The notes under the pieces were generated by a model. It ran no database searches. It was not told where the DNA came from and was given only the letters and a program-made list of their open reading frames with translations. From Halapricum salinum (GTDB taxonomy: Archaea > Halobacteriota > Halobacteria > Halobacteriales > Haloarculaceae), in contig NZ_CP031310.1 in NCBI RefSeq assembly GCF_004799665.1, positions 1,356,887 to 1,420,886 on the forward strand: a DNA stretch of 64,000 bases, read 5' to 3'. The position numbers and the translations under genes were made by a program. The first letter of the stretch is position 1; every line of letters begins with the position of its first letter. Of the stretch, positions 4,101-37,299 are shown in pieces.

Positions 4101-5048
4101 CTAAAAGTCGTTCTTTATGTACGTTTCTCCATCATCCATTTCATATTCATCAGCATACGTCTCAGCACGCCACGAATCCGTAGAATTACTGATTGTAACC
4201 GAGACATCCCCTCCAGATGAAAAGCTCATTGATTCTATCTTTGCGCTGTCCCATAGCGCAATATAATCGATGTACACTCTTCGCGTAAACTCGGTGCCAG
4301 AGATTGGTTCAAGAGGGACATTCAGATGCGAACCAAACCGTCCAATTGTCATGTCTGAATGCGCTGCAGCATCGTACTCAGCACAGCGGTGACCGAACGA
4401 CATGGAGTCGACAGAATTACTAGCTGATGCATACTTCCCATACTCAATATCTCTGCCCCATGTATATTGATCTGGATCGATACTGATCAGTGCCAAATCA
4501 AGCGGCCTGCTAACCGAAGACGTCCACGGATCTTTCAGTGACCAGGAAAAGTCAATTCGGGGGGGATGCCAACGGTAACGCGTGTCATAATATCCCTCAG
4601 TGTAGGTCAATTCTAACCTTGCGTCATCTTTATCCATCCACTGTATCCCTACGTCGGAGGTATCCTGACGCTCGTCAATTGGCTTCAGGCGATTGACCGT
4701 AGCCACTGGCTCTTCGGATGAATTCAGCGTTCGGACGTTCATTTCATCGGGATGAGAGACGCGAACACTACTGTCCATATAAGTGAATTTTGGCCCTCGT
4801 TTCGCGAGTTCTGATCTCCACCGGTCTGTACTCCACCCTTTGCGTTTCCGTTTCCGAAGGAGGGCTTTGTAGGCTCCCGCTGGTAATCCACTACTACGAT
4901 CACCACCTTTGTGTGGAGCAGTTTTCCGTTGTTTTCCGGTAGAGCCTGAAACAGACTCAATACCACCAAGCGTACTAAATCCCGAAACGGCGAGACCAGT
5001 TGATTTCAAGAACCATCGGCGACTTTCCCCAGGGTACTTTCCACCCAT
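4101..5048 (-). CDS. Predicted Tat-exported protein of unknown function
   Basis: 315 residues from the ATG at 5046-5048. The frame is open 57 bp further upstream but the internal start puts ESRRWFLKSTGLAVSGF at residues 7-23, a good twin-arginine signal. After it comes a basic stretch (YKALLRKRKRKGWSTDRWR, about residues 60-80) and then a beta-rich region ending in Asp/Glu-rich residues. I recognise no catalytic motif. Codon use is strikingly less GC-biased than in the genes on either side (many A/T third positions), which suggests recent horizontal acquisition. It is followed 19 bp later by a predicted lipoprotein gene, so the two are probably co-expressed at the cell surface. Confidence 0.6.
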   Translation of the reverse strand: MGGKYPGESRRWFLKSTGLAVSGFSTLGGIESVSGSTGKQRKTAPHKGGDRSSGLPAGAYKALLRKRKRKGWSTDRWRSELAKRGPKFTYMDSSVRVSHPDEMNVRTLNSSEEPVATVNRLKPIDERQDTSDVGIQWMDKDDARLELTYTEGYYDTRYRWHPPRIDFSWSLKDPWTSSVSRPLDLALISIDPDQYTWGRDIEYGKYASASNSVDSMSFGHRCAEYDAAAHSDMTIGRFGSHLNVPLEPISGTEFTRRVYIDYIALWDSAKIESMSFSSGGDVSVTISNSTDSWRAETYADEYEMDDGETYIKNDF

Positions 5049-9928: not shown

Positions 9929-9958
9929 CCGCACGCCGGTTGGCGGTCCAGCCCCTTC

Positions 9959-10038
9959 ATACGGTCGGTTGTAAGTCTGTTCCGGATCGATCGCACAGTC
10001 ATGCGATCGCACCGGTAAATCGTTACAACCGACCGTAT
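9959..10038. mobile_element. 80-bp palindromic element (copy 1), MITE-like
   Basis: Perfect 16-bp terminal inverted repeats: ATACGGTCGGTTGTAA at 9959-9974 and its reverse complement at 10023-10038. Inside, CGATCGCA (9988-9995) pairs with TGCGATCG (10002-10009) around the loop CAGTCA, and CCGG at 9982-9985 and 10012-10015 extends the dyad. The boxes AGTCTGTTCC (left) and GGTAAATCGTTAC (right) are shared with the copies at 34.9 and 37 kb. It occupies the divergent promoter gap between the acetyltransferase and serB, so it could also affect their transcription. Confidence 0.75.
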
Positions 10039-10097
10039 CAGTGCTCGCCTCGACGGGAAATCGAGGGGTTTGTGACCCCTCCCGGAGAAGCGGGGGT

Positions 10098-10730
10098 ATG
10101 CTCGTCGCCTTCGACTTCGACGGGACCCTCTCCGACTCGGAGATGACGGTCCTCCTCGGTGAGCAGTGTGGCGTCGCCGACGAAATGGCCGAGATCACCG
10201 AGCGCGCGATGAACGACGAAATCGAGTACGCCGAGAGCCTTCGCCAGCGCTGTGCCCTGCTGGAAGGTCTCGACGACACCCGCGCCGAGACCGCCTTCGG
10301 CGAAGTCCTCCTCCGGGATGGCGCTGCCGACGTGATCGCAGATCTCAACGACGCCGGCGTCCACACCGCCATCCTCACCGGCGGCTTCGAGCGCGGCGTC
10401 GAGGCCGCCCTCGCGAAAGCCGGGGCCTCCGTCGACACTATCGTCGCCAACCGACTCCCCGTCGAGAATGGGGCGTTGACTGGCGAGGTCGAGGGACCGC
10501 TGATCGAGGGTACCAAAGACACCGCCCTGCGGAATCTCGCCAGCGATCTCGACCTCGATCTCTCCGAGACCGTGGCCGTCGGTGACGGCGCCAACGATCT
10601 CCCGATGCTCAGCGTCGCCGGGCTGTCGATCGGTTTCGAACCCAAGCCCGCCGTCAAGGACTCGTGTGACATCGTCGTGACCTCGATGCCCGAACTCCAG
10701 ATCGTGCTGGAAGAAGAACGAGTCCTCTAA
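10098..10730 (+). CDS. serB: Phosphoserine phosphatase
   Basis: 210 residues. HAD motif I is AFDFDGTLSD at residues 4-13 (Asp6 nucleophile, Asp8 acid/base), motif II is AILTGGFE near 95, the Lys of motif III is in EGTKDTALRNLA near 140, and motif IV is VGDGANDLPML near 163, the form characteristic of SerB. It performs the last step of serine synthesis, hydrolysing O-phosphoserine. serS (seryl-tRNA synthetase) lies next to it in convergent orientation, a thematic neighbour. The stop codon is followed within a few bases by modular repeat element copy B. Confidence 0.92.
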   Translation: MLVAFDFDGTLSDSEMTVLLGEQCGVADEMAEITERAMNDEIEYAESLRQRCALLEGLDDTRAETAFGEVLLRDGAADVIADLNDAGVHTAILTGGFERGVEAALAKAGASVDTIVANRLPVENGALTGEVEGPLIEGTKDTALRNLASDLDLDLSETVAVGDGANDLPMLSVAGLSIGFEPKPAVKDSCDIVVTSMPELQIVLEEERVL

Positions 10731-10945
10731 AACCACTTTTTACTTCGTCGGGTGTCCTCGCGAGCGCATAAAAGCGCTCGCTGCGGGCACCTCTCCTCGT
10801 AAAAACTTGGGGAAAAAGGCCGGAATCGCCTTGCGAGGGCGATTCCGGGGAAACGGCGGCCTGCGGCCGCCGTATGCTTGCCAACTCCGCAGCCGCAGGC
10901 CTGCCCTTCCCCGGTTCGCGCGGTCACGACACGCGCTCACGGCCG
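10731..10945 (+). repeat. Modular 3' repeat element, copy B (after serB)
   Basis: Starts at the serB stop. Order of parts: ACCACTTTTT; hairpin CGAGCGC/GCGCTCG; GCTGCGGGCACC; linker AAAAACTTGGGGAAAAA; hairpin CCGGAATCGCC/GGCGATTCCGG; GGAAACGGC; hairpin ACGGCGGCC/GGCCGCCGT followed by ATGCTTG; then GCAGGCCTGCCCTTCCCC at 10901-10918 and a short GC hairpin. It lies between the convergent serB and serS genes. Compared with copy A, linkers are almost identical while two of the hairpin stems carry paired changes. Confidence 0.8.
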
Positions 10946-11000
10946 TCGCCACCAGATAAATAACTCCGCAGATAGATTTCCTTCGTGAGAAAAGGGATTC

Positions 11001-32412: not shown

Positions 32413-33705
32413 ATGAGTGACGACCGCGGATTCGAGACGGACGCCCTGCACGTCGGTCAGGAAGAGCCGGACCCGGCGACGGGCGCGCGAGCACCGCCGA
32501 TCTACCAGACGACCAGCTACGTCTTCGAGGACGCAGAGGACGCGGCCCAGCAGTTCGCCCTAGAGAAGCCGGGCCACATCTACTCGCGACTGATGAACCC
32601 GACCTGCTCGATGCTGCAGGAACGGCTCGCCGCACTCGAAGGTGGGGTCGGTGCCGTCGCCACGGCCTCGGGAATGGCCGCGCTCAATCTGGCGACCTTC
32701 CTGCTGGCGGACGTCGGCGACAACGTCGTCACCGCCTCCGCACTCTACGGCGGGACCTACACCTATTACACCCACACTGCGCCGCGCAACGGCGTCGAGA
32801 CGCGCTTCGTCGACACACTGGACTACGACGCCTACGAAGAGGCCATCGACGAGGACACGGCCTACGTCCACCTCGAAACCATCGGCAACCCCGCGCTGGT
32901 GACCCCCGATATCGAGCGTATCGCCGACATCGCCCACGAGAACGACACGCCGCTGTTCGTGGACAACACCTTCGCGACACCCTACCTGTGTAACCCGCTC
33001 GAACACGGCGCGGACCTGGTGTGGAACTCCACGACCAAGTGGATCCACGGCTCCGGAACCACGATCGGTGGCGTCCTCGTCGACGGGGGCTCCTTCCCCT
33101 GGAGCGACCACGCCGAGAAGTACCCCGAAGTCGCCGGCGACAACCCCGCCTACCACGGCGTCAACTTCGAGGAGCGCTTCGGCGAGGCCGCCTTTACATA
33201 CGCGGCCATCGCTCGCGGGCTGCGTGACCTGGGCTGCCAGCAGTCCCCCTTCGACGCCTGGCAGACGCTGCAAGGTCTCGAATCGCTGCCGATGCGGATG
33301 GATCGCCACTGCGAGAACGCCCAGCTCGTGGCGGAGTGGCTCGAAGACCACGAGGAAGTCTCCTGGGTCACCTATCCCGGCCTCGAATCACACGAGACCC
33401 ACGAGAACGCCTCGAAATATCTCGACGGCGGCTACGGCGGCATGATCACCTTCGGGCTCGAAGAAGGGTACGAGGCCGCGCGTGACACCGTGGAGTCGAC
33501 CGAGTTGGCGAGTCTGCTCGCGAACGTCGGCGACGCCAAGACGCTGATCATCCACCCGGCGAGTACGACCCACCAGCAGCTTTCGGACGAAGAGAAGGCC
33601 GCTGCCGGCGTCACCGACGACATGGTCCGGCTCTCGGTGGGTGTCGAGGACCCGCAGGACATCATCGACGATCTGGATCAGGCGATCACCTGGTCGACGC
33701 ACTAG
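32413..33705 (+). CDS. metY: O-acetylhomoserine sulfhydrylase / cysteine synthase-like PLP enzyme
   Basis: 430 residues. It is a gamma-family PLP enzyme: YSRLMNPTCSMLQERLAALEGG near residue 55, SGMAALNLATF near 84, VDNTFATPYLCNPLEHGADLVWNSTTKWIHGSGTTIGG near 187 with the Schiff-base Lys in STTKW, and HPASTTHQQLS with VRLSVGVED near the end. MetY makes homocysteine from O-acetylhomoserine and sulfide. metX often follows in haloarchaea but is absent here; instead, the repeat-rich gap begins. ATG at 32413. Confidence 0.9.
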   Translation: MSDDRGFETDALHVGQEEPDPATGARAPPIYQTTSYVFEDAEDAAQQFALEKPGHIYSRLMNPTCSMLQERLAALEGGVGAVATASGMAALNLATFLLADVGDNVVTASALYGGTYTYYTHTAPRNGVETRFVDTLDYDAYEEAIDEDTAYVHLETIGNPALVTPDIERIADIAHENDTPLFVDNTFATPYLCNPLEHGADLVWNSTTKWIHGSGTTIGGVLVDGGSFPWSDHAEKYPEVAGDNPAYHGVNFEERFGEAAFTYAAIARGLRDLGCQQSPFDAWQTLQGLESLPMRMDRHCENAQLVAEWLEDHEEVSWVTYPGLESHETHENASKYLDGGYGGMITFGLEEGYEAARDTVESTELASLLANVGDAKTLIIHPASTTHQQLSDEEKAAAGVTDDMVRLSVGVEDPQDIIDDLDQAITWSTH

Positions 33706-33776
33706 GTGTTTCTGTCTTTTTGTCGGGTGCTACTCGTTGGCTAGGAATCGTCGCTATCACTGGGGGCAACAAGCAG

Positions 33777-33902
33777 GGAAAGCCCTCGCCTCGCTGGCGG
33801 TCGCTGAGAAGGATATCTTCGCTCGCTTTGCTCGCTCAGATAGAGCCTGCTCAGCGACTCCACTACGTCGCCAGCGAGTCTCGCCCTTTCAATCCGCCAG
33901 GA
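33777..33902 (+). repeat. Intergenic repeat family 2, copy 1
   Basis: Starts GAAAGCCCTCGCC, continues GGCGGTCGCTGAG, ATATCTTCGCT and ends CGCCCTTTCAATCCGCCAGG. The reverse complement is present, imperfectly, at 34241-34361. Confidence 0.6.
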
Positions 33903-34240
33903 TCCGCACCGCTACAGCAGGCCTGCCCTTCCGCCACCACTTTTTCCTCCCTCGGGTTTCCTCGTTCGCTTTGCTCACTGCGGGAACCACTCGGTCAGAA
34001 AAACGTGGGGAAAAACGACCCGGACGACTCACTCACTTCGTTCGTTTGCGTCCGGTGAAACGGCGTTCGCTTCGCTCGCCGTATGCTTGTACTGACCGCA
34101 CAGCAGGCCTGCCCTTCCCCGAGTCGCGCGCTGAAACGCGCTCCTGGCCACCGCCGAGCGGTCAGGAAGCGTGTTCCGGCGCCACTCGCGCCGGAACCGG
34201 GGAGGTGTGGGGCTACAATAAGGCGGTTGCGGTGATGTCA

Positions 34241-34361
34241 CCTGGAGGAATGAAAGGGCGAACCACGATCGCGCCGAAGGAGCGTCGCCTGAGCGACCAC
34301 TATCCGAGCGAAGCGAAGATATGTCGCTCAGCGACCGCGAGCGTGGTGAGGGCTTTCGAGG
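34241..34361 (-). repeat. Intergenic repeat family 2, copy 2 (inverted), with truncated copies to 34480
   Basis: On the minus strand it reads CGAAAGCCCTCACCACGCTC, GCGGTCGCTGAGCGACATAT, then CGCCCTTTCATTCCTCCAGG, aligning with copy 1. Two further fragments of its left end, GCGAGCGTGAGGGCTTTTCC (34396-34415) and GAGCGTGGAGAGGGCTTTCG (34451-34470), follow in tandem. Confidence 0.6.
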
Positions 34362-34522
34362 CGTTGTCGTCTCAAGTGGTCGCGGTTCCTAGCGAGCGTG
34401 AGGGCTTTTCCGGGTCGTTGCTGGTCTCTGTTGTGTCGTTATTTCCTAGCGAGCGTGGAGAGGGCTTTCGAGGTGGTTCTCTCTCGACCAGCTATCCCCT
34501 CCACGCACGTTTCCACCCGAAC

Positions 34523-34855
34523 CTAGGGGGTCGTATAGGTCGTGATCGCCGAAATATCCCCCTCAGCAAAGGTCATTACATCGACGAACGCGGTAATCTG
34601 CTTCCCACCCGCGGACAACAACCGCCCTTCGACGGCCAGCCCATCCGCCTGCTCGTAGATCGCGTCGATCGGATGGCTCGTGTCGCTCTGCGGACGCTCC
34701 TCGCGCATGAACTGGACGAACTCGGCCCGCCCATCGATCGTCATGTCGGGGCGTCGGTGGACGAAATCGGGCGTCAGAATGGATTCGAGCGTCTCGTAGT
34801 CGTGCTCGTCGAGCGACCGATAGTACGTCCGTGCGGTCGCCGCTCGCTCGTCCAT
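34523..34855 (-). CDS. SnoaL/NTF2-like fold protein
   Basis: 110 residues. A helix-first cone fold of NTF2-like type is suggested by ARTYYRSLDEHDYETLESILTPDFVHRRPDMTIDGRAEFVQFMREER near the start, followed by strands LAVEGRLLSAGGKQITAFVDVMTFAEGDISAITTYT. Such proteins are small ligand-binding or isomerase-like enzymes; no catalytic residues can be assigned. It is transcribed toward the repeat-rich gap, and a copy of the palindromic element lies directly upstream (34907-34980). Confidence 0.8.
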   Translation of the reverse strand: MDERAATARTYYRSLDEHDYETLESILTPDFVHRRPDMTIDGRAEFVQFMREERPQSDTSHPIDAIYEQADGLAVEGRLLSAGGKQITAFVDVMTFAEGDISAITTYTTP

Positions 34856-34906
34856 ACCCTCTCTGGGTCCTCACCCGAGTAGAAACCAGTGGTTCTTCGC
34901 CGATTC

Positions 34907-34980
34907 ATAGTGATTACTGTCGGTCTGTTCCACATCGACCGCCCGGAGTCGGGCGGTCGTAGTGGTAAATCGCTACACTA
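34907..34980. mobile_element. Palindromic element copy 2 (right end truncated)
   Basis: Left arm ATAGTGATTACTGT (34907-34920), then GGTCTGTTCCACATCGACCG, hairpin GACCGCCCG/CGGGCGGTC around GAGT, and GGTAAATCGCTACA. Bases 34921-34977 match 37121-37177 with two differences. The right arm is imperfect (TACACTATCAC) because the element runs into the stop codon of the peroxiredoxin fusion gene at 34981. It represents the uninterrupted form of the 37-kb element. Confidence 0.7.
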
Positions 34981-36402
34981 TCACTCCGAGGACTCTCGCT
35001 GGTCGCCCTCGCTGCCTTCCAGTTCGGCAGCGATTTCGGCGACTTCTTCGTCCGAGACATCCGCGTCCTCGCGCTCGTCTTCGTCGCCGTCCGCGCGGTC
35101 CTCGCCACCGCTTTGCTGTTCGAGTTCGGCTGCGATCTCGGCGACTTCCTCGTCTGAGACGTCCGTGTCCTCGTCACTCTCCCGCTCGCCGTCCGCTCGC
35201 TCATCCTCCGCGAGTTCGACCGGCTCGGTTCGGTTGTCCTCGACCGGTTCCTCGGCCTCGGGTGCGACCGCACCGACGGCGTCCTCGATCTGGCCGGCCT
35301 CGGCCCCGCCGGAATCGCCCATCTCGACGCCCTTCCCGCCGTACTCGCGGGCGCGGCGCTCGGCCTCGGTCTCCATCCCCCGTTTGTCTTCGTCCTCGTC
35401 GTCGTCGATCTCGACTTCCTCGACTTCGAGGTCGACACCGCCGGCGGCTTCGAGGTCGTCCTCGTCGGCGGCCTCGTCGCGGATCTCGTCCATGATCGAG
35501 GTCTTCTCTTCGCGTTCGAGGAGGATCTCACCGTCTTCGCTGACGATATCGTCCGGGTTCAGCGGTTCCTCGATGTCACGGGCGGTCTCCAGCGGCGCCT
35601 CGGCGTCCTGACGGTACCCCTCGCCAACGGCCCCGTCGCCACTGGAGTAGGCGTCTGCGGCGTCGGCCAGCCAGTCGGCAGCCTGCCACAGCGAGTTGGC
35701 CTTGCTACGAGCCCGATCGAACGGTTCGTCCAGCACTGGCGAATCGCTGAATCGGAAGGCCGTGTCGAACTCCTCGGCGGCCTCCTCGAACTCCTCGCGA
35801 GCCCGCTCGAAGTCGCTCCGGGCGATCATCCAGTCGTGGTCGCCGAACCCGTTCATCGCACTCGTGAACGCCCGCCGCCCCTCGACGTAGTGGGCGTGGC
35901 CGACTCGATACCGAGAGAGGGCCGTCGAGTCGCCGCCGATCGCTTCCACTGTCACGCGGATGGGTTCGACCTGCGGGAGCTCGTAGGGGTCGCTGGTCGT
36001 CCAGCGATACTGGATCATCCCGTTGAGATCGATCACGAACACGGCTCGCTGGAGCAGATACCCTTCGTCGCGGTCGTCGACGACGTCGTAGGCCTCGCCC
36101 ACCTCTCGACGAGTGTCGCTCAAAAGTGGGACCTTGAGGTCGTAGCGGTCGGCGAAGACGCGGTGGCTGTGGACGCTGTCGGGCGAGATCGCCAGGATCG
36201 TCACGTCCTTCTGCATGGTGAAGAGATCGAGTTCGCCGACGTCCGATCCCTCCTCGTCACAGGCGGGGTTGAAGTCCGCGGGGTAGAACATGAGGATCAC
36301 GACCTCCTCGCCGAGGTACGAATCGAGGGACTGGCGATCGAATTCGCCGTCGACCACCCCTGGCAACTCGAAGGTCGGCGCGTCGTCCCCCGCTCTGGGC
36401 AT
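34981..36402 (-). CDS. Peroxiredoxin-like protein with long acidic C-terminal extension
   Basis: 473 residues from the ATG at 36400-36402. Residues 1-150 are a peroxiredoxin/AhpC-TSA domain: APTFELPGV, VVILMFYPADFNPACDEEGSDVG with one Cys at the peroxidatic position, then TILAISPDSVHSHRVFADRYDLKVPLLSD and AVFVIDLNGMIQYRW. Residues 170-270 form a helical domain, and the remainder is Glu/Asp-rich, with the peptide DVSDEEVAEIAAELE occurring twice near the end. No second (resolving) Cys is seen, so it would be a 1-Cys type. The helical/acidic extension is unusual and may mediate assembly. A TATA box (36419-36428) precedes it by about 22 bp. Confidence 0.8.
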   Translation of the reverse strand: MPRAGDDAPTFELPGVVDGEFDRQSLDSYLGEEVVILMFYPADFNPACDEEGSDVGELDLFTMQKDVTILAISPDSVHSHRVFADRYDLKVPLLSDTRREVGEAYDVVDDRDEGYLLQRAVFVIDLNGMIQYRWTTSDPYELPQVEPIRVTVEAIGGDSTALSRYRVGHAHYVEGRRAFTSAMNGFGDHDWMIARSDFERAREEFEEAAEEFDTAFRFSDSPVLDEPFDRARSKANSLWQAADWLADAADAYSSGDGAVGEGYRQDAEAPLETARDIEEPLNPDDIVSEDGEILLEREEKTSIMDEIRDEAADEDDLEAAGGVDLEVEEVEIDDDEDEDKRGMETEAERRAREYGGKGVEMGDSGGAEAGQIEDAVGAVAPEAEEPVEDNRTEPVELAEDERADGERESDEDTDVSDEEVAEIAAELEQQSGGEDRADGDEDEREDADVSDEEVAEIAAELEGSEGDQRESSE

Positions 36403-37001: not shown

Positions 37002-37023
37002 GGGCGTCCGACGCGGGAATACT

Positions 37024-37188
37024 CATAGTGATTACTGTATAGTAACAATTGAAACGATTTACACACCGATCGCACTGTTGTCGTGCGATCGTGTGTGCAT
37101 TGACTTTCAATGGCTACTATAGGTCTGTTCCACATCGACTGCCCGGAGTCGGGCGGTCGTAGTGGTAAATCGCTACAGTAATCACTAT
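37024..37188. mobile_element. Palindromic element copy 3, with an inserted copy 4
   Basis: Outer ends ATAGTGATTACTGTA (37025-37039) and TACAGTAATCACTAT (37174-37188) are perfect 15-bp inverted repeats. The interior right part (37121-37177) matches copy 2. Relative to copy 2, 82 bp (37039-37120) are inserted after GATTACTGT. It occupies the gap between tsr3 and cydA. Confidence 0.75.
37039..37120 (-). mobile_element. Palindromic element copy 4, nested in copy 3 and in reverse orientation
   Basis: 82 bp with its own ends ATAGTAACAATTGAAA (37039-37054) and TTTCAATGGCTACTAT (37105-37120), complementary at 14 of 16 positions. A central stem GATCGCAC/GTGCGATC is flanked by ACAC/GTGT. On the minus strand it carries GTAAATCGTTTCAATTG, the right-hand box of the family. 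Confidence 0.75.
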
Positions 37189-37299
37189 CAGTCCTACCAA
37201 AGTTTACGCTACGCATCTAAGTGCCTTTCGGGGATTCGCACCTCGTGCAGTCATACAGCCCGTTTTTTGACGCTCAATGGCATTAGACGACGTAAATAG

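Follow-up and report, generated by a model that had tools for sequence, protein, structure and literature searches.

Why does a hairpin lie between an acetyltransferase gene and serB in Halapricum salinum, and what keeps its arms complementary when the arms of its other copies have a different sequence? A first-pass annotation of the window (the whole 64,000-nucleotide stretch analysed here, positions 1,356,887 to 1,420,886 of contig NZ_CP031310.1) had described an 80-bp, fully self-complementary element at this site, shaped either by selection on folding or by a transposition mechanism that copies one end from the other. The hairpin belongs to a new superfamily of haloarchaeal MITEs that make a 3-bp TNA duplication. 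How such elements move and how they keep their shape are questions of graded certainty, which are taken up below with the evidence that bears on each.

The hairpin and its locus

The fold itself is not in doubt. In the hairpin at 9959-10038 the 16-bp outer arms are perfect and an inner stem of eight pairs is present; folded as RNA, the stretch forms a stem of 16 pairs, then a 7x7 internal loop followed by 4 pairs, and beyond a 2x2 loop a last stem of 8 pairs, with an energy of -46.3 kcal/mol against a shuffle mean of -20.24 (z -9.44, with 0 of 200 shuffles equally good). Full self-complementarity was an overstatement, however, as two boxes oppose each other unpaired. Because the outermost A and T of the 80 bp are part of a TCA direct repeat, the limits of the element, here called A1, are better placed at 9960-10037:

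9957..9959, no strand: left target-site duplication of A1, TCA, the same triplet as the right flank
9960..10037, plus strand: copy A1, 78 bp, arms TACGGTCGGTTGTAA, recognised by its hairpin, a model match, its target-site duplication and its absence at the locus in genomes G001, G002 and G005
9975..9983, plus strand: left box GTCTGTTCC of A1, an exact match, comprising the unpaired side of the internal loop plus CC
10014..10022, plus strand: right box GGTAAATCG of A1, an exact match
10038..10040, no strand: right target-site duplication of A1, TCA, the same triplet as the left flank

The neighbours are those first named: a GNAT acetyltransferase on one side and, on the other, a hydrolase of the HAD family that is consistent with SerB. 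Both genes are present in G001, G002 and G005, where alignment of the locus finds the element absent; in G004 the intergenic stretch is longer and different. A separate inverted repeat around GGGGTTTGTGACCCC (window 10063-10081), directly upstream of serB, is retained, though altered, in G001, G002, G004 and G005 and may be an operator or leader structure.

Copies of the boxes had also been noted at 34.9 and 37.0-37.2 kb, and exact GTCTGTTCC/GGTAAATCG pairs do occur there, at 34923/34964 and 37123/37164. They belong to two further copies, one of them interrupted by a member of another family, B:

34908..~34987, plus strand: copy A2 (model match 34907-34987), with a decayed right arm, an approximate right end and only the left target-site duplication, TCA
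37026..37187, plus strand: copy A3, interrupted by a family B copy, with the target-site duplication TCA at 37023-37025 and 37188-37190
37040..37119, minus strand: family B copy inserted into A3's left arm and bordered by TA at 37038-37039 and 37120-37121

The nested copy has 100% identity to two other places of the same genome. Its insertion is compatible with a TA duplication, and comparison of family B on plasmids is ambiguous. With one mismatch allowed, GTCTGTTCC alone is not enriched in the window over shuffles; the signal is the box pair at fixed spacing. Two other parts of the window, ~33730-34470 and 10730-10950, show ~70-90% identity to many places of the genome on both strands and are unrelated to the hairpin element. 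A Pfam search with the window ORF at 33641-34882 returned no match.

A dispersed family and its wider superfamily

Searching the whole genome bears out the idea of a dispersed family. The host genome holds 25 exact box pairs at the fixed spacing (the reversed control gives 0), with copies lying in both orientations, and a covariance model built from 23 copies yields 87 matches over both strands at E up to 0.01, which fall in 51 places, five of them family B. Relatives carry copies as well: the model matches in 97 of 146 genomes of the host's family and in 20 of 22 genera, with up to 31 matches per genome among the matches listed. Among the matches listed in a box-pair scan of named records, the exact pair at correct spacing occurs in Halapricum hydrolyticum and in the MAG Halobacteriales archaeon QH_10_67_22, the further rows of that scan resembling chance. 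Plasmids of Haloarcula, Natrinema, Natronorubrum, Halococcus, Halostella and others carry relatives of the element. Bursts are seen in G136, with 110 exact box pairs, and in G138, with 99 half-pattern matches, and these two genomes are good places to seek an active helper.

Beyond the family proper, half-element patterns match in 36 of the 146 genomes. Most of the 30 listed half-element loci hold related elements of ~70-195 bp whose ends read TASNG..TGT and whose duplications are mostly TNA (a few loci are chance), and other families with the same end rule and different boxes were found at locus L262 (family C) and at L150 (families D and E). Searching plasmids with families D and E was unproductive, and a search of a phage collection gave no match to the element. 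One 40-bp remnant (G000:C1:206499-206540) keeps both arms and the right box only, apparently through internal deletion.

Target duplications and empty sites

Movement is recorded in the flanks. Among 123 copies in the fetched loci (at most 2 mismatches in each box, at most 7 in the arms), 94 have identical 3-bp flanks: TCA in 51, TGA in 40, TAA in 2 and TTA in 1. Empty sites, which the first-pass annotation had proposed seeking in relatives, are found on plasmids. Three copies on the Halomicrobium plasmid pHmuk01 (87715-87793, 187625-187703 and 202422-202500) correspond to sites with a single triplet in pLC1Hm-01, a syntenic plasmid of the same genus; in the case of 187625-187703, one flanking triplet carries a substitution. 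An arm-only scan of pHmuk01 and pLC1Hm-01 turned up 24 and 14 candidates, of which many are chance, and those that remain are shared by both plasmids, unalignable or not element-like.

Two of the three pHmuk01 empty-site insertions adjoin annotated gene ends. In 20 of 52 copies the duplicated triplet could serve as the stop of an open frame 80 or more codons long whose GC3 exceeds 0.7, as could 417 of 5880 TGA sites in the same loci; intergenic placement alone would raise the number, and the 20 include at least one spurious frame, that of the window copy, which runs antisense to serB. Such counts give a weak link between insertion and stop codons.

Several of the traits by which MITEs are recognised are found here: elements of 78-82 bp with no coding capacity, inverted ends of 14-16 bp, a target duplication of fixed length and many dispersed copies with evidence of mobility. 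Hairpin anatomy, and the abundance of PATEs in haloarchaea (PMC3119063), might instead call to mind a hairpin element of the REP-like or PATE kind, derived from IS200/IS605 and moving as single-stranded DNA. This origin is the most improbable of those considered, since the family has true terminal inverted repeats and 3-bp duplications, and PATEs are described as having neither in the account of them in PMC3119063.

Arms that differ and pair

That arms differ between copies and pair within each copy was an observation of the first pass, and it holds up quantitatively. Over 23 copies and 30 pairs, 72 cells are changed on both sides, where shuffles give 21.9 and slid versions no more than 12; the test takes the copies as they are, relatedness included. 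Mismatch between arms, over 16 positions, averages 1.37 within a copy and 3.68 between copies, and the majority of copies remain able to form the hairpin.

The same annotation had gone further, proposing that the interior is conserved and the ends are free, the reverse of ordinary MITEs. Here the data disagree: conservation across 35 copies is 1.52-1.55 bits at the tips and 1.56-1.59 at the boxes, and only mid-arm positions 7-11 fall to ~1.0, in a profile that covers 35 of 52 rows (length 82, family B excluded) and whose model was built from box-bearing copies, which favours the boxes. The copies compared at first had boxes in common because those boxes had been used to spot them.

Pairing of this kind, with a stable fold and compensatory changes, is also what a structured RNA or an RNA-level regulatory element would display, its repetition then being happenstance. 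Base pairs speak to this directly. The 123-copy set has 29 G-U pairs versus 22 A-C mismatches; G-U is therefore not clearly above A-C, and the counts give no hint that one RNA strand is under selection. Copies lie on both strands, an Rfam search with the element gave no match, and target duplications and empty sites belong to a mobile element. A role as RNA is accordingly very improbable, and selection on RNA folding, one of the first suggestions, is unlikely.

How, then, does pairing arise? Among 60 mostly young copies, one-sided changes number 69 and two-sided complementary changes 6, so homogenisation is not fast; the excess of one-sided changes implies that pairing accrues slowly, or through selection on which copies jump again.

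Inverted loops and unlike boxes

The innermost part of the hairpin records a further process. Two pHmuk01 copies, 4602-4680 and 69164-69242, have the same shell around an 11-nt loop that is exactly inverted. Among 38 distinct 6-nt centres, seven reverse-complement pairs occur, a number that column shuffles reach in 0.06%; reverse-only and complement-only pairs number 0 each, though at 6 nt the closing pair lies within the centre, which makes these two controls partly unfair. The 4-nt centres give six reverse-complement pairs (P 0.011 or 0.006 in two tests). Arm homogenisation and spacer inversion are among the consequences stated for template switching between short inverted repeats in PMC8604942. 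The proposal that one end is copied from the other therefore survives in part: the inverted loops support it indirectly, nothing ties the copying to transposition, and the young copies speak against fast copying.

The boxes behave differently from the arms in that they stay unlike. Symmetric boxes, sought in an exact form with TGT and ACA also required, occur in 0 of 146 genomes, and asymmetric copies number 167, in 11 of the 146. That the boxes are never symmetric in the form searched suggests that their asymmetry is functional, and they may be protein-binding sites.

The search for a helper transposase

As the elements carry no gene, a helper was sought elsewhere in copy-rich genomes. The transposase family PF01609 is matched in all six genomes of the genus, the matches in G000, G003 and G005 being weak and non-matching. 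It is also matched, though sparsely, in 9 of 12 further copy-rich genomes; the host genome has two weak matches, and most copy-rich genomes have few or none. PF13586 is matched in 0 of 18 genomes. No autonomous element with the family ends was found in the 2,245,446 bases of fetched loci, a search of loci rather than of whole genomes. Of 13 long candidates with matching ends and triplets, nine are complete small elements at both ends, three are so at one end (among them L093, which covers window copies A2 and A3) and one is the insertion at L262.

That insertion (L262 1008-2498, in G001) is an IS4-type element in the right box of a family C copy, with a 10-bp duplication. Its ends had at first seemed to be those of a family C element, but it was rejected as mobiliser on account of its own inverted ends, its 10-bp duplication and its position inside that copy; its ends resemble those of ISH8. 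An ISH3-like transposase at L258 was likewise rejected, as it occurs in 71 of 146 genomes yet is missing from every one of the copy-rich G001-G005, and a search for inverted ends around it and its relatives found nothing convincing. The host genome also encodes, on the minus strand of L253 (1297-3162), a single 621-aa IS4-like transposase-like protein, 43% identical to a protein in G001; no recognisable inverted ends were found around its gene.

How the family may move and keep its shape

Very probably, the hairpin is a gene-less MITE, one member of a large superfamily in haloarchaea, that a TNA-cutting transposase mobilises in trans, with template switching and paired-end selection keeping its arms complementary. 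A DDE-type transposase acting in trans would make a 3-bp staggered cut at TNA targets, chiefly TCA or TGA, and a cut so staggered results in a duplicated triplet around each insertion. The arms would stay complementary, even as their middle drifts, through polymerase template switching at the hairpin combined with selection for two ends that must work as a pair.

Alternatively, the arms may match only in that both ends are read by the same transposase, with the arms of different subfamilies answering to different transposases and no part played by folding or template switching. The conservation of the TASNG tips and the TGT block is what transposase sites would show, and, since young copies change mostly on one side, pairing could be kept by which copies jump on. 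Such an account is conceivable, though we consider it doubtful: at least 11 different perfect arms are found with the same boxes, several of them in one genome that is almost without transposase genes of the families searched, and the loop inversions require another process.

A more unusual possibility is an element whose helper reads its fold. Such a helper would recognise a fixed tip, the asymmetry of the internal loop and a mid-arm that is paired but free in sequence; the form it reads may be a hairpin or a cruciform. Mid-arms that vary yet pair, an internal loop that stays asymmetric (0 of 146 genomes symmetric versus 167 asymmetric copies) and the failure to find an ordinary transposase in the genomes and loci searched would all fit. 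We regard it as unlikely, because copies with mismatched arms exist among the 123, and staggered duplication and conserved tips are typical of double-strand DDE transposition; we also know of no enzyme that reads such a fold. There is, by the same token, only a small chance that the family represents a class of gene-less transposon whose helper reads fold and sequence together and is a resident enzyme outside the insertion-sequence families searched. Were that so, a fold-reading helper would let the arms drift by hairpin template switching without loss of mobility.

With the trans-mobilised MITE as the preferred reading, haloarchaea gain a mini-transposon superfamily that is widespread, has been active recently and follows a defined target rule; its missing transposase can be hunted.

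Comparison with known systems

Titles and abstract openings in the literature yielded no description of the hairpin family. IS5-type and PIF/Harbinger/Tourist elements make 3-bp TNA duplications, and the family matches them in this respect (TCA, TGA, TTA and TAA); no cognate DDE transposase was found in the copy-rich genomes searched, and a relation of the ends is putative. Among haloarchaeal elements, ISH2 is ~520 bp long. It is moved by ISH8 with a 10-bp duplication, and MITEHsal1/2 are haloarchaeal MITEs with known parents, as they are presented in PMC10264941. These resemble the hairpin family in being short and gene-less, with inverted ends and a target duplication; the hairpin family differs in its much shorter length, 3-bp duplication and near-complete hairpin, and in that no parent was found.

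SMR-A (HqIRS42, 43, 55) and SMR-B (HqIRS40, 41) of Haloquadratum walsbyi are likewise haloarchaeal, gene-less and ~80-110 bp long with prominent inverted ends, and they too have ends unrelated to known transposons, many copies, an unexplained mobilisation and a habit of inserting into other mobile elements (PMC3119063), SMR-A doing so in the palindromes of PATEs. In a comparison made by description only, SMRs are reported there without target duplication, whereas the hairpin family makes one of 3 bp.

Template switching at quasi-palindromes, as treated in PMC8604942, finds its counterpart in the homogenised arms and inverted spacers seen across copies of the hairpin family, although here we infer the process from dispersed copies rather than from mutations at a single locus. 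Since these dispersed copies record both arm homogenisation and loop inversion, the family can be used to measure how hairpin replication errors reshape archaeal palindromes.
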